A stretch of 64,000 nt of DNA from Cliona cf. orientalis (Eukaryota; Porifera; Demospongiae; Clionaida; Clionaidae), in contig OZ005697.1 in the NCBI GenBank assembly GCA_963930775.1, positions 1,984,001 through 2,048,000 on the forward strand. The letters run 5' to 3'. The notes under the pieces were generated by a model that ran no database searches, was not told the origin of the DNA, and saw nothing but the letters and a program-made list of their open reading frames with translations. Below are positions 9,017 through 31,584 of the stretch, in pieces. Numbering within the stretch: the first letter of the stretch is position 1; every line of letters begins with the position of its first letter. A program made the translations under genes and the position numbers.

Positions 9017-9536
9017 TACTTGTTGCTTGGAATGTATTAAACCAATATAAAAATTCTGTAGCTAATTGCTCCACAAGTTACATAGCGATAATAGCATAAT
9101 AATTGTAATTAGGTACTATGATAAGTCAGGACTTCTTGGGGGGGGGGGGGGGGGGGGAGGACAAGGGAGTGCTCATCCCCCCTTGCCCCCCTTGTAAAGG
9201 TAGTATTATCACACGCAAAAAGCCAAGAAATCGCCTTAATATGAATGATAAGAGCTTCATAATTTAGTGCCTGGGCCCGGAGTGCACTAGAAGCGATCGC
9301 AGGGAGTTCAAAAAATTCCTGGGGGAGCATGCCCCCAGATCTCCCTAGAGATCGTGTGCTTACATACATGGAAAATATTCTTTCCCCCCCCCTTGATCTC
9401 ATACTAGCTTGCTGTGCACCCAACCCACACAACCCCCCCTCCCCCCCCCCCCCCCCCCCCCCCCCGGGAAACTTCTAAATGAGCTGAGGCCTGTTCGGGC
9501 GTGGCTCATTACAGCTTTTTTTACCATTTCATTCAG
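9017..9536. other. Non-coding spacer with long G and C homopolymers
   Basis: A G-tract at about 9,138-9,158 and a C-tract at about 9,426-9,465 bracket a segment that contains the palindrome TGGGGGAGCATGCCCCCA near 9,319. The bracketed segment resembles a short inverted-repeat insertion, but clean ends cannot be drawn. The segment ends in a pyrimidine-rich acceptor (TTTTTTTACCATTTCATTCAG) for the next exon. Confidence 0.5.
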
Positions 9537-11628
9537 GAAGAGCCACAAACCTCAACCGCCAATCCGAAAGTTAAGCCAACAATGAAGCCCAGTGTGATCC
9601 CACAACTAAACGAAGAGGATGATGGGATGATTAGTGACATTGAGATACCTTCGATATCTTTTGATGAGATGCGTTTTGGTGACTATGACTTATCGTCTAG
9701 TACTAGTTATCATATCGTGGATGATTCGAGTGGTCCGCTTTATCCTGGTGCAACCATCACTACGTTTCAGGCTACTTCTATTCTCACTTCGTGGTTTAGC
9801 TTGTATCCTGGCATTACCAAATCGGCATTTGACCGTCTGCTTAATATTTTGCACAAGCATATTCTTCCCGTTGATAATCATCTTCCAGAAAGTTACAGCA
9901 TTGCACACAAAAGTGTAAATAACTTTTTGACGCCTGTAGAAGAATACCACTGTTGCGTTAATGACTGTGTAGTCTACCGCAACAGCGCTTCTGGAAGGTA
10001 TGCTGATTTAGATATGTGCCCAAAGTGTAATGAGCCACGATATAAGGATATCAATGGAAAGATTCCCCGTAAGCGGTTCAATCATCTTCCTCTTGAGTTG
10101 AGACTCAGGAGGTTGTTTGGGCACAAAACAACATCCCAACTCCTTCAACAACACTCAGAGTGTCAAGACAATACTCCTACATCCTTGTCGAGCATCCACG
10201 AGTCTACAGCATGGAATGAATGGTTTGGTCCCAAAGGAACTTTCCAAGGGCAGCAACAGGGAGTGGTGTTTGGAATATGTCTTGATGGTGTCAACCCCTA
10301 TTCGAAAGAGCATACGAGCTATAGCATGTGGCCCATAGTTTTGTTTCCCCTCAATCTTCCCGAGAATATGAGGAGATCATCCAATTCGATGATGTTAGCC
10401 GGTATAATTCCAGGTCCTGGTGAACCTCGTGATTTTGATCCTTACTTGGATATCGTAGTTGATGACATCATGTCATTGAATAAACTGAAAATTTATGACG
10501 CCCACAACAATACGACATTCAAAGTTAACACAAACATCTGTCTACACGTGTTCGATTATCCTGGGCATAACAAGATTTTTCATTGCCAAGGTAATTGCCA
10601 CCATGCACTTATCAGTTTTCATTCATGCACTATAGCAATTATTATATATTCTATATAGCATTATTTAGACAGGGAAATTTACATGTCATGATGATTTTTA
10701 GTATGATCCATGGTTAGTCAAGTTAACAACCGTAGTGGGGTGACTTTGTCATGGTGAGCAATGAAATTAAATTTTGGATATGTTACAATTCCATTTCTTG
10801 TAGGGTAAGGCTTATTGTTTCTAACTCAAAACCAAACCGTTAAGCAGCTAACTCGTGTGCCTATGATATATGTGGCCAAATTTGTAAATGGGAGGTGTTT
10901 TGCTGGGGTATATTGTGCTCAACACTTGCTCATTAGAATTGTAATGTAACCCACTGTGTCACTATCATGTATAATATTCTTTGTAGGAGCTGGTGCATAT
11001 TCCGGATGTGCCTATTGTACACAAAAGGGTGAATATTCTAAAGCTCTGTCCAAAATGGTTTATCTGGAGCACAGATCATTTCTGCCTCAAGGTGACCCGC
11101 TTCGTTTGGATGCGCACAATTTTCCAACAAAAGGCATATGTACCTCTCCACCACCTAGAAGCAAGACGCAGGAATTTGTTGATCATGCGAATGGGCAATA
11201 TCTGTCTATTACGAACAAAGAGACACGCACGGCACTAACGCAACGAACGGGATGTAAAGGATCGTACGCTCTCCGTAGGCTCCCGCACCATGACCGCCAT
11301 ATCAATACACCAGTAGAACCAATGCACTTGGTTAAGAACATCAGTGAGCACATTGTCAGGATGATATCGGGTTCTGCAGATTCTATCAAAGTCCGAAACG
11401 AAGAGCAATTGCGTGATCGATTTTCATCGTCATGGCCGATTCAAGGGCAAGGAAGTAAAGGTAATCTTCCTCCCGCACCTTTTCGACTATCTAAGTCTGA
11501 CTGCAAGATTGCTAACCAGCGAGTATTGAGTGTACGCACCCCTCATGGCTTTGATTGGACATCTCAACAAATATTCAGTGAAAAAATTCACATGAAATCT
11601 GTACAGTGGAAGCACGTATTGGTGTCAG
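9537..11628 (+). pseudogene. Truncated TNP2-type (CACTA/EnSpm) transposase, two exons
   Basis: The exons are 9,537-10,590 (donor CCAAG|GTAATT) and about 10,988-11,628 (acceptor TTTGTAG; donor GTCAG|GTATCT). The translation has hallmarks of the TNP2 family: a Cys pair motif (YHCCVNDCVVY, then MCPKC), SYSMWPIVLFPLNLPE, a GPGEPRDFDPYLD block, and CLHVFDYPGHNK followed across the intron by AYSGCAYC. Later PVEPMHLVKNISEHIVRM also fits TNP2 architecture. CACTA transposases are normally longer; here the chain stops and receptor copy A begins 75 bp further on, so the C-terminal part and the element's right end are missing. The coding frame itself is undamaged. No CACTA terminal sequence is visible nearby. 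Confidence 0.8.
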
Positions 11629-11702
11629 GTATCTTGAAATTCATTATTGTATAGATGCTACCTTACAATGTCAATAATATTATGCATAATGATAACGTGC
11701 AG

Positions 11703-13825
11703 GGACGCTGCAAATATTCAATGGCACATTAACGGAAATTACATGTTCAGCTACTGTGTATGTACCAGTATTTCGTCTGATGGATCAGGAAAGGGAGTAT
11801 GATTCTAGGGACTACAATCAGCTACCAGACTTGTTTGATATTGAGGCAATTCTCTCTCCAAATAGAGACAATGTTACTCTTGTCATTAATGGAACTGAAC
11901 GTTCCAATAATCTGACTATCATGTGTAGTAATGAAGATGTACTTACAGGCCGATTTCAGATTCTTTTTGTGTTGATACTGGAATTTGTTGGTAAGTTTAT
12001 TGCTCAAACTTGACCATTCATTACTTTATGGCTTCATTTTAGGCAATCTACCAGCTCCAAATAATATTCAATATAGTGAAGATCCTGCTGGATACCTGCA
12101 AATATTTTGGGAGCCACCAACTTTAGTTTCTGATAAACTTGGTTCTCAGAATGTTAGAATTGATTCCAGGATAACACACTTCTTAATTTATACTATGATC
12201 AGCAATGAGTCAACAACAACAGTCTACAATGCTTCAGGGACATCTTTTGCCATTGGAAATGACGAAATATATTGCGATTTCTGGTTTCAAGTGGCAGCAG
12301 TGAACCCAACTGGGGTGGGAGAACGCAGTACCCGTCAATATTTAGCTTTTGACTGTGAGGTTGCATGATCATTGTATAATATGATGATAATGATGAAATT
12401 AGGGAGATTTATTATTCTCCACTGTCTATAATAGCACATGCAGAATGTATAGATTCCACTAATCCGACTACAGACATGATCATGGAGCCTATTTCAGCAT
12501 CCAGTGGATTATCAGGTGAACTGAGTTGTCAATTATCACTACAAATAATGATGAGATTGTATTTGTATACAGTTGGTGGAGTGATAGCAATAATAGTTGG
12601 TGTAGTTCTAATAATCGTGGGATTGTCCATCATATTAGCTATAGTTTTTACACTAAAGCTCAAGAATGATAAGCACTGTCGTATCAAACAGGGTTTGAAA
12701 TCACAGATAAGGTGAGCAATGCAACAGCTACAATAATTATAATAATCATGAAATAGCGGGTTTATATATCCATTGATTTATGTAAAGCTCATGATTATAG
12801 CAATTATTACAACTCATAGAAGTGATCCACTGTCGGACACTAAGAAATCAGTTGCTGAGATTGAGAAATGTGTGGAATCAGATCACTGTGGCAGTGGAAA
12901 TGATCCTGACATTGTGGATGATAATAACCAACCGTCAGATTCTACGCCAACTAGGGTATGTTGATAAAATTTAATGTAACTATGTGTTGGCCATTAAATT
13001 GCAGTGTTATAATATTATTATTACAGAAATAACAATTCATGACCATGCCATGACGACTATAGCTGCTTGCATGTGTCTAGCATTGTACAGTGAGTACCAT
13101 GTAGGCATTGCAGCTGTAGTTGCATGTGTGTGCACGCATGTGTGTGATATGTAGGTGCGTGTGTGAGTGTGTTAATTTAAGAGAGAGCATACTTTGGGAG
13201 CAATTGACTTGTTTGCCGTGCCTGCACTTGAGAATTAAAATTATCCTCCTAAGACTCCATTTTAACTCTTCCAGATATTATGTAGCTAAGTTGTATGTAT
13301 GCACCCATGTGTGCCTGACAGTGTGTCCTGTGTATGATACCATTTCGCATTCTGATGCTACAACAGCTTCAGTGACTATCTCATCCTATTCCAATTATGG
13401 TCATGTATTATTCCTTTGACGATAAATGCTATAATAATTATTTCATAGTCCCACATTCACAAAGTTTACAAACCTTAGAACCTGACAACCACATACTCTT
13501 ATGGTGAATTTATATTTTGGAAGGCTTTTCCTTTCATGATGCTATGACATTATGCATAGACCTACTCTCATGATGGTCCACCAGTATGCTCATATTTGTA
13601 TGCTGAAATCGATGTTGTTGCTAAGAGGAAAAACAAAGTTCCAGAGCCTAGTTCCTCTGAAGATATAGACCATCATGTATATGCTGTACTGGAACAACCA
13701 TCAAATCAGGTTAACATTATTATGCACTGGCTTAATTATAATGAAAGCAACAATATCAATGTTGTGCCCATGCACTGTAGGTCACTGACCCTGATCAAGA
13801 TGATCATCCTGATTCACAAAAGTAA
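11703..13825 (+). CDS. Receptor copy A: Ig-FN3-TM-tail, signal-peptide exon missing
   Basis: Exons are 11,703-11,990 (Ig-like), 12,043-12,354 (FN3), 12,435-12,515 (stalk), 12,573-12,711 (TM), 12,820-12,955, 13,560-13,709 (YAEI and YAVL motifs) and 13,781-13,825 (C-terminus PDSQK-stop). All are open, with correct phases 1-1-1-1-2-0-0 and consensus GT/AG ends, giving 384 codons. The first exon of other copies is absent; upstream lies the truncated TNP2 gene, whose last donor is also phase 1. The copy may be 5'-truncated and silent, or expressed as a transposase-receptor fusion. The Ig and FN3 halves belong to the DYNQLPDLFDIEA / SEDPAGYLQIF class shared with D, L and M. Confidence 0.75.
13115..13190 (+). 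repeat. GT-rich microsatellite in intron 6 of copy A
   Basis: A degenerate TGTGTGTGCACGCATGTGTG tract lies in the long intron 6. Homologous tracts lie in the same intron of other copies (about 17,185-17,260, 54,580-54,630, 59,208-59,290 and 63,255-63,310), so the tract was present before the duplications. Confidence 0.75.
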
Positions 13826-15693: not shown

Positions 15694-17939
15694 ATGAGGT
15701 TATATATCCACTGAGCATCATCATCGTTTGTGGCTTGCTTGATCCTGCAAGTAAGTGAGAGCTACATGTATATTTAGCCAGTTAGCTACTGAGTTTGAGT
15801 TTATTTATTAGTAGAAGATACTTGTACAATGATACAGGAACACTGCAAATATTCAATGGCACATTAATGGAGATTACATGCTCAGCTGCGTCCCAACTTA
15901 TCGTCTGGTGGACCAGGAAATGGTGTATGATTCTTACGCTAAACTACCAGATTTGTTTGATATTGAGGCAAGAACCTCTCCAACTGGAAACAATGTCATC
16001 CTCTACATCAATGGAACCAACCGCTCAAACAATGTGACTGTCATAATTATGCAGAAATACTGATGTGAATTCAGGCATAATTTCAATTCTTTTTACATTT
16101 ATCCTTGAGTTTATTGGTAGGTTCAGCAACTTGACCATTTTATTTTCATTACACTATAGCTACATGACCTTGTTTTAGGTATTCTACCAGCTCCAAATGA
16201 TGTGCACTATATTGAAGATCCTCCTGGATACCTACAAATACTTTGGGAACCACCAAATTTAGATTCTGATGAGCTTGACTCACAGAATATTAGTTCTAAA
16301 AGAGATGCCAGAATAATACATTACAAAATTTACATCACCACTGAAGAGTCAACAACAGTACAAATCTATAATGCTTCAGGGACATCTTTTGCCATTGGAA
16401 TTGGCAAGATTCCTTGCAGTTTCTGGTTTCAGGTGGCAGCAGTGAACCCAGCTAGGGTGGGAGAACGCAGTCCCCCTCAAAGTTTAAGTTTTAACTGTGA
16501 GTTGGCATGATATACTTCATTGCCTATAATAGCACATACAAGGTGTATAGGTTCCTTAAGTGTACCCACAGTCATGATAATTGAGCCTATTCCAGCATCC
16601 AGTGGATTATCAGGTGAGCATAGTTGTGAATATTATTATGCAAATACATCATTGTAGCTAGTAAATTAATGATGAGATTGTGTTTATACATAGCTGGTGA
16701 AATCGCAGCTACAGTAATAACTGGCATAGTTGTAATAATCACAGGATTAGCAGTCATATTAGCTATTGTTATTACACTGAAGCTCAGGAATAATAGGCAC
16801 CAAGGTGTCAAACAGGGTTTAAAATCAGAATTAAGGTGAGGAATGCAACAGCTGCAATACTATAATAATTATGAAACAGGGGATTTGCCCTTTTATGTGA
16901 TTACATAGCTATTATTATAACTCGCAGAAGTGATCAACTGTCAGATACCAAGGATTCAGTTGCTGAGATTGAGAAATATGTGGAATCAGATCACTGTGGC
17001 AGTGGGAATGATCCTGACACTGTCGATGATAATAACCAGCCGTCAGATTCTACACAAACTAGGGTATATTGACAAACCATTAAATTGCAGTGTAATTATA
17101 GACCTAGCAATTCATGACCATAAGTATGCCATGATGACCAGCTGCTTGTGTCTAGCATTGTACCATGTATACAGGTGTTGCAGCTGCATGTGTGTGTACT
17201 GTGTGCGTGTGCATGCATGTGTGTGATGTGTGGGTGCGTGTGTGAGTGTGTATGTGTTGATTTTAAGATAAAAGAGAGAATAGAGTTTGGGAGCAACTTG
17301 TCTGCCGTGCCTGGCCTAGAACCAGGATAATAATGGGTTAAAGAATTAATTTTTGGGCTCACATTCAAGCTGATGTACTCCTCCTAAAACTCCATTTTTT
17401 TAACTCTTCAGACATGTTGTAAGTTGTATGTATGCACCCATGTGTGTATGTATGTTGTGTATACAACACCGTTTTGCATTCTGATCACTTCAGTGACTAA
17501 CTTATCCTATTCCTATAGTGGACATAAACAGTCCCACATTCACAAAGCTTACAAATACTAGAATCTTATATAACATGTTCGTACTGTTACGGTGAATTTG
17601 GGAGATGTTATAGCTATACCTTTCATGACGCCATCTGCATATCTATAGACCTACTCCCACGATGGTCCACCAGTATGCTCATATTTATAATATGCTGAAA
17701 TTGATGTTGTTGCTAAGAGGAAAAACAAAGTTCCAGAGCCTAGTTCCACTGACGATATAGACCATCATGTATATGCTGTACTGGAACAACCATCAAATGA
17801 GATCCAGGTGCCTAATTACATACGTACACAGTCATCCGTGCACTCATTAAAGCAATGATCATGCCAATATCCACTGTAGATCACCAACACTGATATCGAT
17901 ATTGATCAAAATGATGATCATCCTGATTCACAAGATTAA
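15694..17939 (+). pseudogene. Receptor copy B: full-length layout but frameshifted and stopped
   Basis: All eight exons can be located: 15,694-15,750, 15,838-16,116, 16,179-16,496, 16,533-16,613, 16,694-16,835, 16,928-17,063, 17,649-17,807 and 17,880-17,939. Exon 1 carries a 2-bp insertion that brings TGA into frame after six codons. Exon 2 has a 1-bp loss where other copies read SAAEPAYRLVDQE, and its second Ig cysteine region is altered. Exon 7 has a 3-bp TAA insertion just before the YAEI motif. Exons 3 to 6 remain open. Three independent lesions make this a pseudogene rather than a sequencing artefact. Confidence 0.8.
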
Positions 17940-19983: not shown

Positions 19984-21180
19984 ATGAGGTTTTATCCACT
20001 GAGTATCATCATCATTTGTGATTTACTTAACCCTGCAAGTAAGCGAAAGTTATGTACTGCTAGTTATTAAGCTAGCTATAGAGCTTATCGTGAGTGCACT
20101 AATTAGTGCTATTTGCTCTATCAATAAAGGACAACTGCACATTGATACAGGAACACTACAAATATTCAATGGCACATTAACGGAGATTACATGCTCAGCT
20201 GCTGAACCAGCTTATCGTCTGGTGGACCAGGAAAGAGTGTATGATTCTTATGCTCAGCTACCAGAGTTGTTTGATATTCAGGCAAGACTCTCTCCAACTA
20301 GAAACAATGTCACTCTCTACATCAATGGAACCAACCGCTCAAATAATGTGACTGTCATGTGCGGAAATGTAGATATCTCTTTGGGCACTTCACTTAGTAA
20401 CGTTCTTTTTACACTGATCCTTGAGTTTGTTGGTAAGTTCAGCAACAAAACTTAACCATTCTTGCTACTCTGTGTATGCATGACCTTATTTTAGGTGTTC
20501 TGCCAGCTCCAAATCATGTGCACTATATTGAAGATCCTACTGGAAACCTACAAATACTTTGGGAACCACCAACTTTAGATTCTGATGAGCTTAACTTGCA
20601 AAATATCAGCATTAGAAGAGATGCCAGGATAATTGTTTACACAATCTACATCGCCACTGAAGAGTCAACAATTATAGTACAAGTCTATTATAATGCTTCG
20701 GGGACATCTTTTGCCATTGGAATTGACAAAATTCCTTGCAGTTTCTGGTTTAAGGTGGCAGCAGTGAACCCAGCTGGGGTGGGAGAACACAGTCCCCCTC
20801 AAAATTTAACTTTTGATTGTCAGTTTGCATGATAACGAATATTGCAGAATTCACTAATAATGATTACTCCAATGCCTATAATAGCACATACAGGGTGTAT
20901 GGGTTCCACAAGTTCAACTACAGTCACGACCATTGATCAAAAGCCTATTACAGCATCCAGTGGATTATCAGGTAAACTGAGTTGTGAATATTATGTTCCT
21001 ATATTATACAATCAATAGTGATGAGATTGTGTTTTATAATAACATTATACAGTTGGTGAAGTCACAGGAATAATAATTGGTGTAGTTTTAATAATCGTGG
21101 GATTGTCGGTCATATTAGCTATTGTTTTTGCACTGAAGCTCAAGAACCATAACCATGCTCTCTGGTGTATAATAGTATAG
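19984..21180 (+). CDS. Receptor copy C: Ig-FN3-TM with truncated tail (291 aa)
   Basis: Exons are 19,984-20,038 (signal peptide MRFYPLSIIIICDLL), 20,151-20,432 (Ig-like, two Cys, several N-glycosylation sites), 20,495-20,818 (FN3, keeps FWFKVAAVNPAGVGE), 20,885-20,971 (stalk) and 21,053 onward (TM). After the membrane segment the frame reads KLKN and then leaves the family sequence, stopping at TAG 21,180 after about ten novel residues. The joined sequence matches the exon-like block found behind other copies, so a deletion removed cytoplasmic exons 6 to 8. The exon 3 donor is GTCAGT rather than GTGAGT. The open frame suggests a functional tail-less receptor, perhaps a decoy; expression is unknown. 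Confidence 0.7.
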
Positions 21181-21654: not shown

Positions 21655-23651
21655 ATGATGTTCTATACACTGAGCGTCATCATTATTTGTGGTTTAATTG
21701 ACCCTTCGAGTAAGCTCTGTACTACTCTTTGAGTTTGAATGATTCAGAAGTGGGTCTATTTGTAATAAAATTGTATTAATACAGGAACACTGCAGGTGTA
21801 TATTATATTCAATGGCACATTAACGGAGATTACATGTTCAGCTGCTGTGCCAGTATTTCGTCTTGCAGATCAGGAAAGGGAGTATGATTCTGAGGACTAC
21901 AATCAGCTACCAGACTTGTTTGATATTGAGGCAATTCCCTCTCCAAATAGAGACAATGTTACTCTTATCATTAATGGAACTGATCGTTCCAATAATCTGA
22001 CTATCATGTGTTGGAATGAAGATGTAGTTACAGGCCAATTTCAGATTCTTTTTACATTGATTCTGGAGTTTGTTGGTAAGTTCATCAATCAAATTAAACT
22101 TGTTATTCGATGGCCTCAATCATTTTAGGCATTCTGCCAGCTCCAAAAAATGTTCAATACAGTGAAGATCCTGCTGAATGCCTACACATATTTTGGGAGC
22201 CACCAACTTTAGTTTCTGACAAACTTGGCTCTCAGAATGTTAGTCTAAGAATTGATTCCAGGATAACACACTTTGAAATTTACTTCACCACTAAAGAGTC
22301 AACAATAGTACAAGTCTATAATGCTTCAGGGACATCTTTTGCCATTGGAATTGACAAGATTCCTAGTAGTATCTGGTTTCAGGTGGCAGTAGTGAACCCA
22401 GCTGGGGTGGGAGAACGCAGTCCCCCTCAAAATTTAGTTTTTGACCGTGAGTTTATAAGGATAAAGATATAATACGCTACTGTTTATAATAGTACATACA
22501 GGGTGTATGGGTTCCATGAGCTCAACTACAGACATGATCATTGAGCCTATTCCAGCATCCGGTGGATTATCAGGTGAACCTAGTTATGAATAATGTATGA
22601 ACCTAAAATCATCACTGTAGCTACTAATAGTAATATTTATTTTTTATATACAGCTGGCGAAATCACAGCAGCGGCAACTGGCGTAGTTTTAGTAATCATG
22701 GGATTATTGATCTTATTGGCTGTTATTATTACGCTGAAGCTCAAGAATGATGCGCACCAATGTGTCATACAGAGTTTGAAATCAGAAATTAGGTGAGAAA
22801 TGCAACGGCTGCAATTATAATAGTCATTAAACTGGGGATTTGCCCCTTTTAAATTAGTGATCAGCTGTCAGACATAAAGAACTCCGTTGCTGAGATTAAG
22901 AAATGTGTGGAATCAGATCACTGTAGTAATGGGAATGATCCTGACACTGTGGATAATAGCCAACCATCAGATTCTACACAAACTAGGGTATGTCAATGTG
23001 CTGTATATGACACTGTTTCACGTTCTGATACATACAGTACATGTAGTGAATAATTCATCCTATAGCTAACCATATTATTATGATCATGACTCCAATTTTT
23101 GTACAATGTAACCATATACTTTCTCTATAATACTCTTTTGCTCCAAAGGGAATTTCTGCTGCCCCGCCTCCTCCCCCAGTTCTGCCGAATGTTCCTGCTC
23201 CACCTCCTCCCCCTCCCCTTCCCGGGCCCCCGATGCCCCCAGGAGCACCCATGGCTCCTGCTCCACCACCACCTGCTCCTGTGGTGGAGCCTATCTCAGA
23301 TGGTCGAAGTCATCTACTGAGGGCTATAATTGAAATGGGTATAACAGTGCTATGTTAATGTATTCCTTGTACATATACATCCATAACCTACACACCGGTA
23401 TTATGCACAATTATGGTGCATGCCTACCTGTATTCCCCAATAAAAATCAACATCCCTCCAGCGGTACTCAGTTTTTTTTGTAATTATATAAATTAGGAAC
23501 AAAACTACGAAAGGTAGAACGTATGAAGAAACAATATGGACCAGGTAATGATGTGGCATCTATCCTAAAGAGGAGGATCTTTCTGGAGATTTGCGATTCC
23601 AGTGGAGGGGAGTCAGATTCTGACTCATCAGATTCCAAGTGGAATGACTAA
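21655..23651 (+). CDS. Receptor copy D: Ig-FN3-TM receptor with WAVE-like VCA tail (452 aa)
   Basis: Eight open exons: 21,655-21,709, 21,785-22,075, 22,129-22,446, 22,493-22,573, 22,654-22,792, 22,858-22,987, 23,149-23,338 and 23,497-23,651. Phases match throughout. Residues 1-18 are a signal peptide, 19-115 Ig-like, 116-221 FN3, 222-248 stalk, about 252-277 transmembrane, and 295-338 the family's normal exon 6. Residues 339-385 are proline-rich (PPPP runs). Residues 392-408 are a WH2 motif (SHLLRAIIEMGTKLRKV), 419-436 a central helix (DVASILKRRIFLE) and 437-452 an acidic end with Trp near the terminus (SDSSDSKWND). This order is the actin- and Arp2/3-binding VCA module of WAVE/SCAR proteins. 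The usual YAEI/YAVL exons are absent; the join falls inside intron 6. The predicted role is receptor-triggered actin nucleation at the plasma membrane. The alternative is a chance juxtaposition with a WAVE gene fragment that is not co-transcribed. Confidence 0.8.
23149..23651 (+). other. Proline-rich and VCA exons in copy D
   Basis: This pair of exons (23,149-23,338 and 23,497-23,651) is unlike the rest of the array: it is GC-richer and proline-rich. The acceptor CCAAAG at 23,148 is phase 0, exactly the phase of the preceding receptor exon 6. WH2 (LL..I..G..L+KV) binds G-actin, and the central-acidic segment with a penultimate-region Trp binds Arp2/3. The central helix VASILKRRI is much closer to WAVE (typically VA.IL.RRI) than to WASP. 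The frame is uninterrupted from exon 7 start to the TAA. Confidence 0.85.
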
Positions 23652-23934: not shown

Positions 23935-26900
23935 CATCAATAACTACAGTCCCATCAGTAACTACAGTCTCCATAGTCACTACTGTCAACTACAGTCCCA
24001 CCAGTCTCCACTGTCATATCAGTAACTACAGTCTCAATAGTCACTACTGTCAACTACGGTCCCACCAGTCTCCACTGTCACATCAGTAACTACAGTCCCA
24101 TTGGTCACTACTATCACATCAGTAACTACAGTCTCAATAGTCACTACTGTCAACTACGGTCCCACCAGTCTCCACTGTCACATCAGTAACTACAGTCCCA
24201 TTGGTCACTACTGTCACATCAGTAATTAGAGTCTCAATAGTCACTACTGTCAACTACACCAGTCTCCACTGTCACATCAGTAACTACAGTCTCAATAGTC
24301 ACTACTGTCAACTACGGTCCCACCAGTCTCCACTGTCACATCAGTAACTAGAGTCTCAATAGTCACTACTGTCAACTACGGTCCCACCAGTCTCCACTGT
24401 CACATCAGTAACTACAGTCCCATTGGTCACTACTGTCACATCAGTAACTACAGTCTCAATAGTCACTACTGTCAACTACGGTCCCACCAGTCTCCACTGT
24501 CACATCAGTAACTACAGTCCCATTGGTCACTACTGTCACATCAGTATTTAGAGTCTCAATAGTCACTACTGTCAACTACGGTCCCACCAGTCTCCACTGT
24601 CACATCAGTAACTACAGTCTCAATAGTCACTACTGTCAACTACGGTCCCACCAGTCTCCACTGTCACATCAGTAACTACAGTCCCATTGGTCACTACTGT
24701 CACATCAGTAACTACAGTCTCAATAGTCACTACTGTCAACTACGGTCCCACCAGTCTCCACTGTCACATCAGTAACTACAGTCTCAATAGTCACTACTGT
24801 CAACTACGGTCCCACCAGTCTCCACTGTCACATCAGTAACTACAGTCCCATTGGTCACTACTGTCACATCAGTAACTACAGTCTCAATAGTCACTACTGT
24901 CAACTACGGTCCCACCAGTCTCCACTGTCATATCAGTAACTACAGTCCCATTGGTCACTACTGTCACATCAGTATTTAGAGTCTCAATAGTCACTACTGT
25001 CAACTACGGTCCCACCAGTCTCCACTGTCACATCAGTAACTACAGTCTCAATAGTCACTACTGTCAACTACGGTCCCACCAGTCTCCACTATCACATCAG
25101 TAACTACAGTCTCAATAGTCACTACTGTCAACTACGGTCCCACCAGTCTCCACTGTCACATCAGTAACTACAGTCCCATCGGTCACTACTGTCACATCAG
25201 TAACTACAGTCTCAATAGTCACTACTGTCAACTACATTCCCACCAGTCTCCACTGTCACATCAGTAACTACAGTCCCATTGGTCACTACTGTCACATTAG
25301 TAACTAGAGTCTCAATAGTCACTACTGTCAACTACGGTCCCACCAGTCTCCACTGTCACATCAGTAACTACAGTCCCATTGGTCACTACTTTCACATTAG
25401 TAACTACAGTCTCAATAGTCACAACTGTCAACTATGGTCCCACCAGTCTCCACTGCCACATCAGTAACTACAGTCCCATTGGTCACTACTTTCACATTAG
25501 TAACTAGAGTCTCAATAGTCACTACTGTCAATTTCGGTCCCACCAGTTTCCACTGTTACATCAGTAACTACAGTCCCATTGATCACTATTGTCACATCAG
25601 TAACTAGAGTCTCAATAGTCACTACTGTCAACTACAGTCCCACCAGTCTCCACTGTCACATCAGTAACTACAGTCCCATTGGTCACTACTGTCACATTAG
25701 TACCTACAGTCTCAATAGTCACAACTGTCAACTATGGTCCCACCAGTCTCCACTGTCACATCAGTAACTACAGTCTCAATAGTCACTACTGTCAACTACG
25801 TTCCCACAAGTCTTCACTGTCACATCAGTAACTACAGTCTCAATAGTCACTACTGTCAACTACAGTCCCACTAGTCTCCACTGTCACATCAGTAACTACA
25901 GTCTCAATAGTCACTACTGTCAACTACGGTCCCACAGGTCTTCACTGTCACATCAGTAACTACAGTCCCATTGATCACTACTGTCACATTAGTAACTACA
26001 GTCTCAATAGTCATTACTGTCAACTACGGTCCCACAAGTCTTCTCTGTCACATCAGTAACTACAGTCCCATTGGTCACTACTTTCACATTAGTAACTACA
26101 GTCTCAATAGTCACAACTGTCAACTATGGTCCCACCAGTCTCCACTGTCACATCAGTAACTACAGTCTCAATAGTCACTACTGTCAACTACGGTCCCACA
26201 AGTCTTCACTGTCACATCAGTAACTACTGTCTCAATAGTCACTACTGTCAACTACAATCCCACCAGTCTCCACTGTCACATCAGTAACTACAGTCTCAAT
26301 AGTCACTACTGTCAACTACGGTCCCACAAGTCCACCGTCACATCAGTAACTACAGTCCCATTGGTCACTACTGTCACATTAGTAACTATAGTCTCAATAG
26401 TCACTACTGTCAACTACGGTCCCACAAGTCTTCACTGTCACATCAGTAACTACAGTCCCATTGGTCACTACTTTCACATTAGTAACTACAGTCTCAATGG
26501 TCACAACTGTCAACTATGGTCCCACCAGTCTCCACTGCCACATCAGTAACTACAGTCCCATTGGTCACTACTTTCACATTAGTAACTAGAGTCTCAATAG
26601 TCACTACTGTCAACTACGGTCCCACCAGTCTCCACTGTTACATCAGTGACTACAGTCCCATTGATCACTATTGTCACATCAGTAACTAGAGTCTCAATAG
26701 TCACTACTGTCAACTACAGTCCCACCAGTCTCCACTGTCACATCAGTAACTACAGTCCCATTGGTCACTACTGTCACATTAGTAACTACAGTCTCAATAG
26801 TCACAACTGTCAACTATGGTCCCACCAGTCTCCACTGTCACATCAGTAACTACAGTCTCAATAGTCACAACTGTCAACTATGGTCCCACCAGTCTCCACT

Positions 26901-28300
26901 GTCACATCAGTAACTACAGTCTCAATAGTCACTACTGTCAACTACGTTCCCACAAGTCTTCACTGTCACATCAGTAACTACAGTCTCAATAGTCACTACT
27001 GTCAACTACAGTCCCACTAGTCTCCACTGTCACATCAGTAACTACAGTCTCAATAGTCACTACTGTCAACTACGGTCCCACAGGTCTTCACTGTCACATC
27101 AGTAACTACAGTCCCATTGGTCACTACTGTCACATTAGTAACTACAGTCTCAATAGTCACTACTGTCAACTACGGTCCCACAAGTCTTCTCTGTCACATC
27201 AGTAACTACAGTCCCATTGGTCACTACTTTCACATTAATAACTACAGTCTCAATAGTCACAACTGTCAACTATGGTCCCACCAGTCTCCACTGTCACATC
27301 AATAATTATAGTCTCAATAGTCACTACTGTCAACTTTGATCCCACCAGTCTCCACTGTCACATTAGTAACTACAGTCCCATTGGTCATTACTGTCACATC
27401 TGTAACTACAGTCTCAATAGTCACTACTGTCAACTACAGTCCCACCAGTCTCCACTGTCACATTAGTAACTGCAGTCCAATTGGTCACTACTGTCACATT
27501 AGTAACTACAATCTCAATAGTCACTACTGTCAACTACAGTCCCACAAGTCTCCACTGTCACATCAGTAACTACAGTCCCGTTGGTCACTACTGTCACATT
27601 AGTAACTACAGTCCCATCAGTCACCATTATCACATCAGTAACTACAGTCCCACCAGTCACTACTGTCACATCAGTAACCACAATTTCAATGGTCACTACT
27701 GTCACATCAGTAACTACAGTCTCAATAGTCACTATTGTCACATTAGTAACTACAGTCCTATCAGTCGCTATTGTCACATCAGTAACTACAGTCCCATCAG
27801 TCACTATTATCACATCAGCAACTGTAGTCCCATTGGTCACTACTATAGCATCAGTAACTATAGTCCCAGCAGTCACTCTTGTTACTTCAGTAACTACAGT
27901 CCCATCAGTCACTACTGTCACATCAGTAACTACAGTTCCATCAGTCACTACTATCACATCAGTAACTATAGTCCCAAAAGTCACTATTGTACCATCAGTA
28001 ACTACAGTACCATGAGTCACTATTGTCATGTCAGTAACTACAGTCCCACTAGTCTCCACTAGCTGTCACATCAGTAACTACAGTCCCATCAGTCACTACT
28101 GTCACATTAGTAACTGCACTGCAGTCCCACCAGTCACTACTGTGACATTAGTAGTAACTAGAGTCTTAATAATCACTACTGTCACATCAGTACCTACAGT
28201 CCCATCAGTCACTATTGTCACATCAGTAACTACAGTCACTACATATCTACAGTCCCACTAGTCTCCACCGTCACATTAACTGTAGTCCCATCAGTCACTA
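23935..28300 (+). repeat. Left minisatellite array (TCACTACTGTCA family), ~4.4 kb
   Basis: The tandem repeats are built from ~36-bp blocks (CAGTAACTACAGTCCCATTGG) and ~64-bp blocks (GTCTCAATAGTCACTACTG plus a CACCAGTCTCCACTGTCACA part), forming a higher-order unit of about 100 bp. Towards 27,600-28,200 only the short blocks remain and sequence variation increases. Many short ORFs rich in His/Ser/Tyr or Thr/Val are by-products of the repeat and are not genes. Confidence 0.95.
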
Positions 28301-29606: not shown

Positions 29607-30045
29607 ACATCTCCGGAAGTATTGAACGAAAATTAATAGCTGCTGCTCTTGAATAGAGTAAGCGATCGAATATCGGCCACAACATATATTCGGACGATCA
29701 TACCTCAAAAACAAGAAGAGCTATGATCATCACTCTTGCGCCAGAATGTAGCCCAGGCCAAATGCTAGTTGCGTACCAATCACGAACTAACCACGCCCAA
29801 AACTGTTGGAGCTACAGCAGGAAATGTATCCGCATCCGATTATAGCAAAACACGGACGAGAGTGTCGAATTTCGGACGATCGCTCCACAAGTATATACAA
29901 AAGCGCAGCAAGCCGCCACAACTGGGGTGCAGTACCACCTAACCTCCCTCTATCAGACTGGCAAATCTTGGACACGAGCGGTATTGTGGGGTCACGTGAC
30001 CATACACGGTTGCATATGCACTCCGTGATCAATAATCGGACAGGT
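29607..30045. repeat. Left arm of a nested ~440-bp inverted repeat
   Basis: This arm (from about TCCGGAAGTATTGAACGAAAA to AATAATCGGACAGG) is matched in inverted orientation by 31,117-31,584. It includes GATCGCTCC, AGCTACAGCAGGAAATGTATCC and ACAACTGGGGTGCAGTACC, conserved nearly base for base. Each arm keeps the same ~70-codon open frame (MELQQEMYP...). The arms bracket the Ulp1/PHD remnant, so they may be the TIRs of a nested, internally deleted transposon. Confidence 0.75.
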
Positions 30046-30406
30046 CATTCCATTCTGCATGCTCATAAAATATCGGATTGAATGCTATCCACGGCTCCAA
30101 TCATTAGATTATTTAAAGTTTTTTTTTCTACTTAGCTAGTGTGAAATTTGTTGCTTTTAGCAGGCCAGTCCTGATTTTTTGTTCAAAATTTTCCTTACTC
30201 CTCGCCTTATTAGTGCACTATTTTGCCTCTAAACTTGTCAGCAATGACAATTTCAGCTATCACAGTGTGTAAGATGTTCCACTTTTATATACCAAAAGTC
30301 CCACTTTTTCAAGGAGTTTGGCCTGCTTTAGCTTTAGACGGGTTAGTAGTTATATGTCTATAAACCATCAGAAGTATTACTTGCACCTAATTATCTCTTC
30401 CGACAG
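30046..30406. other. Non-coding segment before the Ulp1 remnant
   Basis: AT-rich and without gene signal. It may be intron of the decayed gene, since the next coding stretch starts at an acceptor (TTCCGACAG). Confidence 0.5.
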
Positions 30407-30925
30407 GTCACATACATGTATTTGATTCAGTACATGACGACATAAGTGGGGACACCATAAATCAAATATGCAGCATTGTACGTTCTAAACGAAGTGGAGT
30501 AAAAATTGACATTGCGGACGTTTGTAAGCAAGGTGGAGTCAAAGATGATTGCAATTGTGGACTGTTTGCACTAGCAATGGCTACTACATTATGTGATGGG
30601 GAGCTTCCTCAATCCAAGCAATATATACAAAAAGAAATGCGGCCTCACCTTATTCAATGCTTGAAATAGTCACATCCATCTGTGTTTCCTTCAGAGAATC
30701 AGGACTGGGACCATGATTACATTAAGAAGACAAAGCTAGTAGTCACAGTACACTGCTCCTGTCGTCTCCCAGAGGATCCTAACAGGAGAATGATTCAGTG
30801 CACAAATTATGAGGTTTGGTTTCATGAGGAGTGTGAGCAGTGAAGTGGTTGTTGCAAGAGCATGGAGTGATCCAGATTATCCATGGAAATGCAGAAGATG
30901 CATTAACAGGCGTCGAGCTACCTAG
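30407..30925 (+). pseudogene. Ulp1-like cysteine protease C-terminus followed by a broken PHD finger
   Basis: From the acceptor at 30,406 the frame reads HVFDSVHDDISG and then QGGVKDDCNCGLFALAMAT, followed by an MRPHLIQCLK-stop end at 30,669. This pattern (Q..., DCG, then MR.HL..C) is the C-terminal half of transposon-borne Ulp1/SENP-type proteases, with the catalytic Gln and Cys present; the His/Asp part is missing or upstream. After a second acceptor (TTCAG, 30,694) a PHD-like stretch follows: CSCRLPEDPNRRMIQC, VWFHEEC, then after a frameshift WKCRRC to TAG 30,925. One zinc Cys is Tyr and the frame breaks after EECEQ, so it is inactive. Ulp1 domains are common in several eukaryotic DNA-transposon families. 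Confidence 0.65.
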
Positions 30926-31116
30926 CTAGCGTGTGTTGCATAATGTTGTACAAAATGTTGTGATTTTTTTTTTCTCTTTTCCCTTTCAATAAACCATTGA
31001 TACAAACAGTGTTGAGGGGGAACAAGGCAGCTCTTGCTGACTTTTGATGGTAAGAGTGGCTAATATTCTCCGGAGTAGCATAGAGCGGATGTTTTAGTCC
31101 CCCGCCTGAATTTTGA

Positions 31117-31584
31117 TCTGTCCGATTACTGATCATAGAGTGTATACACAACCGTGTATGGTCGCGTGACCCCACAATACCGCTCGTGTCCAAGATTTGC
31201 CAGTCTGATAGAGGGAGGTTAGGTGGTACTGCACCCCAGTTGTGGCGGCTTGCCGCGCTTTTGTACATGCTTGTGGAGCGATCGTCCGAAATTCGACACT
31301 CTCGTCCGTGTTTTGCTATAATCGGACGCGGATACATTTCCTGCTGTAGCTCCAACAGTTTTGGGCGTGGTTAGTTCGCGATTGGTGCACAACTAGCACT
31401 TGGCCTGGGCTACATTCTGGCACAAGAGCGATGATCACACCTCTTCTTGTTTTTGAGGTATGATCGTTCGAATATACGTTGTGGCCGATATTTGATCGCT
31501 TACTCTAGTAGCCGTACCACACCACCTACTACTACTATTAATTTTGACAAGTATTAAAATTTTCGTTCAATAGTTCCGAAGATG
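31117..31584. repeat. Right arm of the nested inverted repeat
   Basis: This is the inverted counterpart of 29,607-30,045, slightly longer because of an insertion near 31,510-31,550. See the left arm for the shared words. Confidence 0.75.

Follow-up and report, generated by a model that had tools for sequence, protein, structure and literature searches.

A candidate receptor-VCA fusion gene within a tandem receptor array of the sponge Cliona cf. orientalis

Can a cell-surface receptor carry its own Arp2/3-activating module? The question is raised by one gene, copy D, in a window of 64,000 nucleotides (contig C9, positions 1,984,001-2,048,000) of the Cliona cf. orientalis genome, which spans 216.8 Mb in 149 contigs. 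The original prediction described copy D as an Ig-FN3 transmembrane receptor whose tyrosine-motif exons had been exchanged for a proline-rich exon and an exon with the WH2, central and acidic segments (VCA) of a WAVE protein. By a small measure, we favor reading copy D as a receptor-VCA fusion gene of recent origin, set in an array of about 53 receptor copies, whose product would be anchored in the membrane and activate Arp2/3 upon clustering; the junction between its two parts is one that we infer from sequence.

Copy D occupies window positions 21,655 to 23,651 on the forward strand. Its eight exons were taken over from the original prediction, with borders placed by inspection, and splicing them in silico yields 1,350 bases and 449 residues with zero stops. 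The predicted chain is indeed open, although its length is 449 rather than 452 residues. Every intron begins with GT and ends with AG; the proposed phase 0 fit of exons 6 and 7 (22,987/23,149) is borne out in the spliced frame, and the border of exons 7 and 8 (23,338/23,497) is in phase 1. Exon 1 (21,655-21,709) supplies the start codon and a hydrophobic, signal-peptide-like start (MMFYTLSVIIICGLIDPS), judged by eye. It is followed by an Ig-like exon 2 (21,785-22,075), a fibronectin type III (FN3) exon 3 (22,129-22,446), a stalk containing Ser and Thr in exon 4 (22,502-22,573), a transmembrane helix with a basic juxtamembrane stretch in exon 5 (22,654-22,792), and the first cytoplasmic, juxtamembrane exon 6 (22,858-22,987), in which a short heptad-like stretch was noted by inspection. 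Exon 7 (23,149-23,338) is proline-rich (26 Pro in 49 residues) and holds the first half of the WH2 segment, while exon 8 (23,497-23,651) holds its second half, the central segment (DVASILKRRIFLE), an acidic segment ending in KWND, and the stop. Exons 1-6 and their splice borders are common to other copies of the array, as had been claimed for the receptor part, and the observation made on copy D is confirmed.

Identification of the FN3 domain in exon 3 is supported by profile search and by fold. A profile built from 12 copies of the window matched titin chains with an E-value of 6.3e-8, with fibronectin and neogenin chains ranking lower. PF00041 was matched at E<=1 by 10 of these 12, most strongly at 2.5e-4, whereas copy D itself, at E 0.15, lies under the curated cut-off. 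An AlphaFold2 model of exon 3 (pLDDT 71.6) compared with the PDB by Foldseek gave 96 matches at E<=0.001, of which the top rows were FN3 domains of neogenin, DCC and sidekick-2. For exon 2, it is the modeled fold alone that supports an Ig-like domain of V type. Sequence profiles gave no Ig match, and Pfam matched one of ten copies, to DUF7585 (E 0.055). The AlphaFold2 model of exon 2 (pLDDT 79.8, pTM 0.69) finds the Ig domain of Nav beta-4 as its best Foldseek match (E 5e-4, the sole match under 0.001), and the 50 matches listed, whose TM-scores lie at roughly 0.4-0.63, are by title mostly V-type chains from antibodies, T-cell receptors and the like. In a hydropathy scan (19-residue windows, threshold 1.6), the transmembrane helix is the single strong segment, reaching 3.15 over residues 255-273; another peak, of 1.75, lies within the Ig-like exon, and the N-terminal leader, hydrophobic by eye, stays below 1.6.

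Searching the genome with the FN3 exon (E<=1e-5) returned at least 59 matches. At least 55 are on the plus strand of contig C9 between 1.892 and 2.146 Mb, corresponding to at least 53 places after two split pairs are joined; of the remainder, two lie on the minus strand of the same contig, at around 2.55-2.57 Mb, and two are distant, on contig C1. The tandem array of about 53 Ig-FN3-TM copies on one strand extends over C9:1,892,000-2,147,700, with window positions 11,705-63,105 forming its middle, and its layout is reminiscent of recognition or allorecognition gene clusters. The tyrosine exon with its YAEI motif has 35 matches in the genome, all on this contig. At window positions 13,590-13,720 and 17,685-17,810, the tail exon carries YAEI and HVYAVL, motifs that appear SH2- or ITIM-like. 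In copy B (15,697-17,810), the frame of the Ig exon is interrupted by stops and a further stop lies beside YAEI; this copy is probably a pseudogene. Copy C (19,985-21,180), directly upstream of copy D, has Ig, FN3, stalk and TM stretches, and probes for a tail exon found none. Right behind copy D lies a minisatellite of about 4.3 kb (23,942-28,237) with periods of 64, 100 and 164 bases and a strong GC skew, in which open frames of 213 and 183 residues occur on the two strands near 27.4-28.1 kb. Two transposon-like coding stretches were recognized by eye, one at 9,520-11,640 running straight into copy A, which has no clear exon 1, and one at 29,650-31,560 between inverted repeats. Elsewhere in the assembly, contig C149 carries a COX1 gene reading TGA as Trp eight times together with an atp9-like gene; demosponge mitochondrial DNA has both TGA read as Trp in COX1 and an atp9 gene. 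Contig C111 also has COX1 and atp9-like genes, the latter with two matches, and looks like partly repeated mitochondrial sequence.

The tail of copy D has a different ancestry. Residues 378-449 match human WAVE1 chains of the PDB by phmmer with an E-value of 2.5e-6 (the WAVE2 WH2 peptide reached only 0.52 in the same search), and the VCA is 90% identical over 64 residues to the WAVE gene of the sponge's own genome. Such a resemblance goes well past what chance would give, and it bears out the predicted arrival of proline-rich and WH2-central-acidic exons in place of the tyrosine exons. The original prediction had also pointed to HMM searches as a check on the tail; phmmer finds WAVE1, whereas Pfam returned no family at E<=1 for the whole copy D chain, WH2 included. 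The WAVE gene lies on another contig (C19) and is an ordinary one, its SCAR homology domain (SHD) exon being present and matching PDB WAVE1 with an E-value of 3.2e-17. Copy D aligns to it from 23,137 to about 23,687, starting in the middle of the proline-rich exon and running past the stop into the 3′ UTR, with the exception of most of the intron, which is largely unalignable to WAVE. By this alignment, exons 7 and 8 of copy D are derived from the WAVE gene. A retroposed WAVE copy is ruled out by the intron at the WAVE position and the shared start of the 3′ UTR. The SHD itself is absent from copy D, which begins with the hydrophobic leader and the Ig-like domain and has no Pfam match. The WASP superfamily is defined by WH2, central and acidic segments at the C-terminus. 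Its WH2 motif is present in copy D by phmmer with one inserted Ile (DLLRAIEMGMKLRKV in WAVE, HLLRAIIEMGTKLRKV in copy D) and a D-to-H change, and its core LL..I..G..LRKVE is otherwise kept. The central segment is intact, and the acidic segment keeps its conserved Trp in a C-terminus that reads DSKWND against DSEWSD in WAVE, including an E-to-K change before the Trp. Given the extra Ile and the D-to-H change, full VCA potency should not be assumed. A genome search with the VCA module gave nine matches, six of which fall in three loci: copy D, a second chimera (D2), and the WAVE gene. The other three have E-values of at least 0.78, and we therefore rejected them as further VCA receptor loci; in the genome and array searches, only D and D2 among the receptor copies showed a VCA.

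How the two parts were joined is recorded in the bases behind exon 6. The family's next exon, carrying the tyrosine motifs, was sought in six copies and located in five, being open in phase 0 in three of them (for example LYVCTHVCLCAVYDTVSHSD...SYSYYG) and shifted or stopped in two. Copy D aligns within this exon from 22,988/22,997 to 23,063 in four of the five copies, with similar places in other copies among the matches listed. The bases of copy D that had been read as the start of the family's intron 6 are thus the remains of the exon that begins LYVCTHVCLCAVYDTVSHSD in other copies. The tyrosine exon has lost its ends and the rest (22,988-23,063) now belongs to the inferred intron, while the exon 6 donor is retained; in-frame read-through would meet a TAA at 23,051-23,053. 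Of the family's exon plan, copy D shares exons 1-6 in the same phases, and of the tyrosine tail it has only a remnant. Because the bases before 23,137 begin with this wreck, the tails were not swapped neatly inside the old intron. The proposed chimera of receptor and WAVE VCA is supported, its frame being conserved and both its donor and a sister chimera being present in one genome, whereas the clean intron swap gives way to partial deletion of the tyrosine exon and its absorption into a new intron. Since WAVE-derived DNA begins in the middle of a WAVE exon at 23,137, the exon 7 acceptor (CCAAAG/GG) was formerly WAVE coding sequence (FAPKGIS).

The sister chimera D2 lies 51 kb upstream of copy D (C9:1,954,874-1,956,708) and shares its breakpoint and its plan of eight exons, with a chain of 425 residues and zero stops. 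In D2, the last part of exon 6 has been deleted along with the old donor, and a downstream donor (ACA/GTACGT) is also in phase 0. Identity between D and D2 is 92-98.5% over exons 2-6 and introns 2-6, 80-90% over exon 7, intron 7 and exon 8, 95% in the 3′ UTR, and 80% in exon 1, with intron 1 hardly alignable. This patchiness suggests an older pair that was partly homogenized. Because D2 shares the breakpoint and is open, copy D is not an assembly join; an artefact is rejected by the distance of 51 kb, the different flanks, and a divergence of 10-20% across intron 7 and the VCA exons. The WH2-central-acidic module can also be compared between the two. D2 has no Ile insertion in its WH2, but VQ is inserted just behind LRKV, and its central segment reads KRNIFLK instead of KRRIFME (RR to RN and E to K). 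Judged from these residues, a working central-acidic part is more to be expected in copy D, and a working WH2 in D2. Behind D2, at C9:1,957,595, lies a single fragment of exon 6, the relic of another copy.

The VCA reading frame is conserved between D and D2. Gaps are multiples of three in 10 of 10 coding cases versus 3 of 14 non-coding ones (Fisher p 1.5e-4), and in 6 of 6 cases for the VCA exons alone (p 0.0022). The length of the exon 6 gap hinges on the assumed donor and the test is alignment-dependent; omitting that gap gives p 2.7e-4. One deletion over the end of exon 6 is counted both as coding (24) and as non-coding (49), and some gaps of the proline-rich part are of a repeat type in which threes are favored, which together weaken the gap test somewhat. 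In a codon model of exons 7-8 with three sequences (WAVE, D and D2), omega was 0.25 on the D branch (2dLL 3.98 against omega = 1, p about 0.05) and 0.25 on the WAVE branch, which includes the chimera stem. The D2 branch has an omega of 1.37, not different from 1, and looks relaxed; a shared value for D and D2 is 0.62, with omega = 1 not rejected (2dLL 1.13). Between WAVE and D there are 19 synonymous and 14 non-synonymous changes, and 14 or fewer amino-acid changes occurred in 0.8% of neutral simulations with 33 substitutions. About half of these simulations were also free of stops, so the lack of stops alone means little. Additionally, exons 7 and 8 are less diverged (32/288) than intron 7, which separates them (30/151; p 0.014; p 0.12 without the last 62 bases of exon 8). 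The receptor part of the pair has an omega of 0.66, near the family median for exon 3 of 0.54 (1,121 pairs among 48 copies with dS above 0.05).

The splice that joins exon 6 to exon 7 (22,987 to 23,149) is the step on which the fusion protein would depend, and its two sites differ in quality. The exon 6 donor (AGG/GTATGT; AGGGTATGT) is the commonest form of the family, shared by 18 of the 34 exon 6 donors compared. By contrast, the acceptor of exon 7 (AAAG) scores 1.05, beating fewer than 1% of the 137 family acceptors on which the matrix was trained, and 24% of AGs in the array score as high. One hypothesis is that the receptor ends before the VCA, either by read-through to the stop at 23,053 (tail ...TQTRVCQCAVYDTVSRSDTYSTCSE) or by splicing to an AG at 23,066 (LTILL-stop, a frame read by inspection), leaving the WAVE exons as an untranslated relic. 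In its favor, the read-through frame is open and keeps a VYDTVS motif, and the AG at 23,066 scores 7.85 in the family-trained matrix as against 1.05 at 23,149. That matrix, however, knows only four site classes of one family, and the WAVE gene on C19 itself appears, by inspection, to use a CAAAG acceptor. The donor of exon 6 is intact and is the usual one, and an untranslated relic would sit poorly with six of six in-frame gaps and an omega of 0.25 in D. We regard a VCA-less ending as unlikely, if well worth keeping in mind. Another in-frame fusion, by arithmetic, would join a donor at 23,036 to an acceptor at 23,180; the former is weak (1.59) and the latter is outside the 12 best-scoring AGs. 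The exon 7 donor (GTATAA) is weak as well, beating only about 1% of 189 family donors.

Weak splice sites also bear on a second possibility, that the fusion exists as a gene yet serves no selected function and, as a recent chimera, is drifting towards a pseudogene. The D2 omega of about 1.4, the altered central segment of D2 and the damaged copies elsewhere in the array all fit such a history, whereas the in-frame gaps, the absence of stops in both D and D2, and the low omega on D speak against it, and we consider it quite unlikely. The tail might instead serve as a tether or decoy, binding Arp2/3 through its central and acidic segments and delivering actin poorly, so that it would anchor or sequester rather than fire. 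An extra Ile and a D-to-H change in the WH2 of copy D, next to a retained DVASILKRRIFLE and acidic Trp, speak for this; but the WH2 core LL..I..G..LRKVE is otherwise kept, omega is low over exons 7-8 as a whole, and D2 shows a different pattern (no Ile insertion, altered central segment), making this reading very unlikely. An internal promoter might also drive the VCA exons by themselves, giving a short soluble protein with proline-rich and VCA parts, similar in this to mouse WHIMP. This would agree with in-frame ATGs in exon 7 of both D and D2 and with the fact that frame conservation is no proof of a receptor junction, but it is highly improbable given, if indirectly, the intact family donor directly upstream.

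We return to the fusion gene as the preferred reading and consider how it could have arisen and worked. The 3′ end of a WAVE gene, from the middle of its proline-rich exon through the intron and the VCA exon to the start of the 3′ UTR, would have been inserted behind exon 6 of one array receptor, which lost its tyrosine-motif exons, and the chimera would then have been duplicated into D and D2. Its product would be a type I membrane protein with Ig-like and FN3 domains, stalk, TM, heptad-like stretch, proline-rich region and WH2-central-acidic tail. If displayed at the cell surface, it could be clustered by a ligand or a neighboring cell, so that at least two VCA modules would meet beneath the membrane. 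There, the proline-rich part may recruit profilin-actin or SH3 proteins, and the tail may hand actin to Arp2/3, building branched actin on the spot and bypassing SHD, Abi, Rac and the WAVE complex. No autoinhibitory domain was recognized in the copy D chain, so control would be by clustering and receptor density. Dimerized VCA activates Arp2/3 (PMC3762362), and the same text reports that release of VCA, membrane-tethered in cells, triggers branch growth and that tethered WASP must let go first. Together with the heptad-like hydrophobic residues seen by inspection in exon 6 and an ectodomain of adhesive type, the activity of dimerized VCA favors a module that is always exposed and governed by clustering or density. 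The boldest form of this proposal is a functioning receptor that doubles as a nucleation-promoting factor: clustering by ligand or contact would switch on Arp2/3 through a covalent WAVE VCA, and tail replacement in a fast-evolving recognition-receptor array would have re-wired specificities from tyrosine signaling to actin assembly. We hold this tentatively, with somewhat less than even confidence. There is a fair chance that copy D represents a functional innovation, and a real one that it is an accident of evolution.

If the proposal is true, no link between the cell surface and branched actin could be shorter than a receptor that brings its own VCA, and such a receptor would let nature itself test whether a VCA in cells can be controlled by clustering alone. 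The donor gene, the recipient family and a sister copy are present in one genome, illustrating how a new signaling architecture may come about when the end of one gene is inserted into a tandem array of receptors; in the case of copy D, this included a splice acceptor made from former coding sequence.

Receptors of the Robo type engage the multi-subunit WAVE complex to reach Arp2/3, as set out below; others use adaptors and Rac. Among titles and abstract openings of the open-access literature, we found no receptor with its own VCA, and a term search of the text of a survey of WASP-family architectures (PMC3298513) gave neither ‘transmembrane’ nor ‘sponge’. The closest relative of the tail is WAVE/SCAR (WASF) itself, from which it is directly derived and with which copy D shares the proline-rich region, the WH2, central and acidic segments, and the position of the last intron. 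In place of the SHD, however, copy D has a signal-peptide-like start, Ig-like and FN3 domains and a TM helix, and would not be expected to enter the five-subunit WAVE complex. Mouse WHIMP is likewise a WAVE-related WASP-family protein that keeps the WCA end (PMC7112243); GFP-WHIMP is described as predominantly cytosolic and at the periphery of protruding cells, ‘transmembrane’ occurs once in the text of that paper, and its passages considered here describe no receptor ectodomain. Receptors with WIRS motifs, such as Robo1, are also tied to Arp2/3-driven actin; as described in PMC8096436, Robo1 recruits the WAVE complex non-covalently by its motif, and the VCA is sequestered until the complex is activated. 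In copy D, by contrast, the VCA would belong to the receptor polypeptide. Plant class I formins are described as transmembrane proteins that combine an extracellular part with a cytoplasmic actin regulator much like copy D, although they belong to plants and carry a formin module (FH1-FH2) unrelated to VCA. The other copies of the array share exons 1-6 and their splice borders with copy D, and many of them run into tyrosine-motif exons instead of a VCA. Each of the modules is thus known from elsewhere, and it is their combination into one receptor chain that is new to us.
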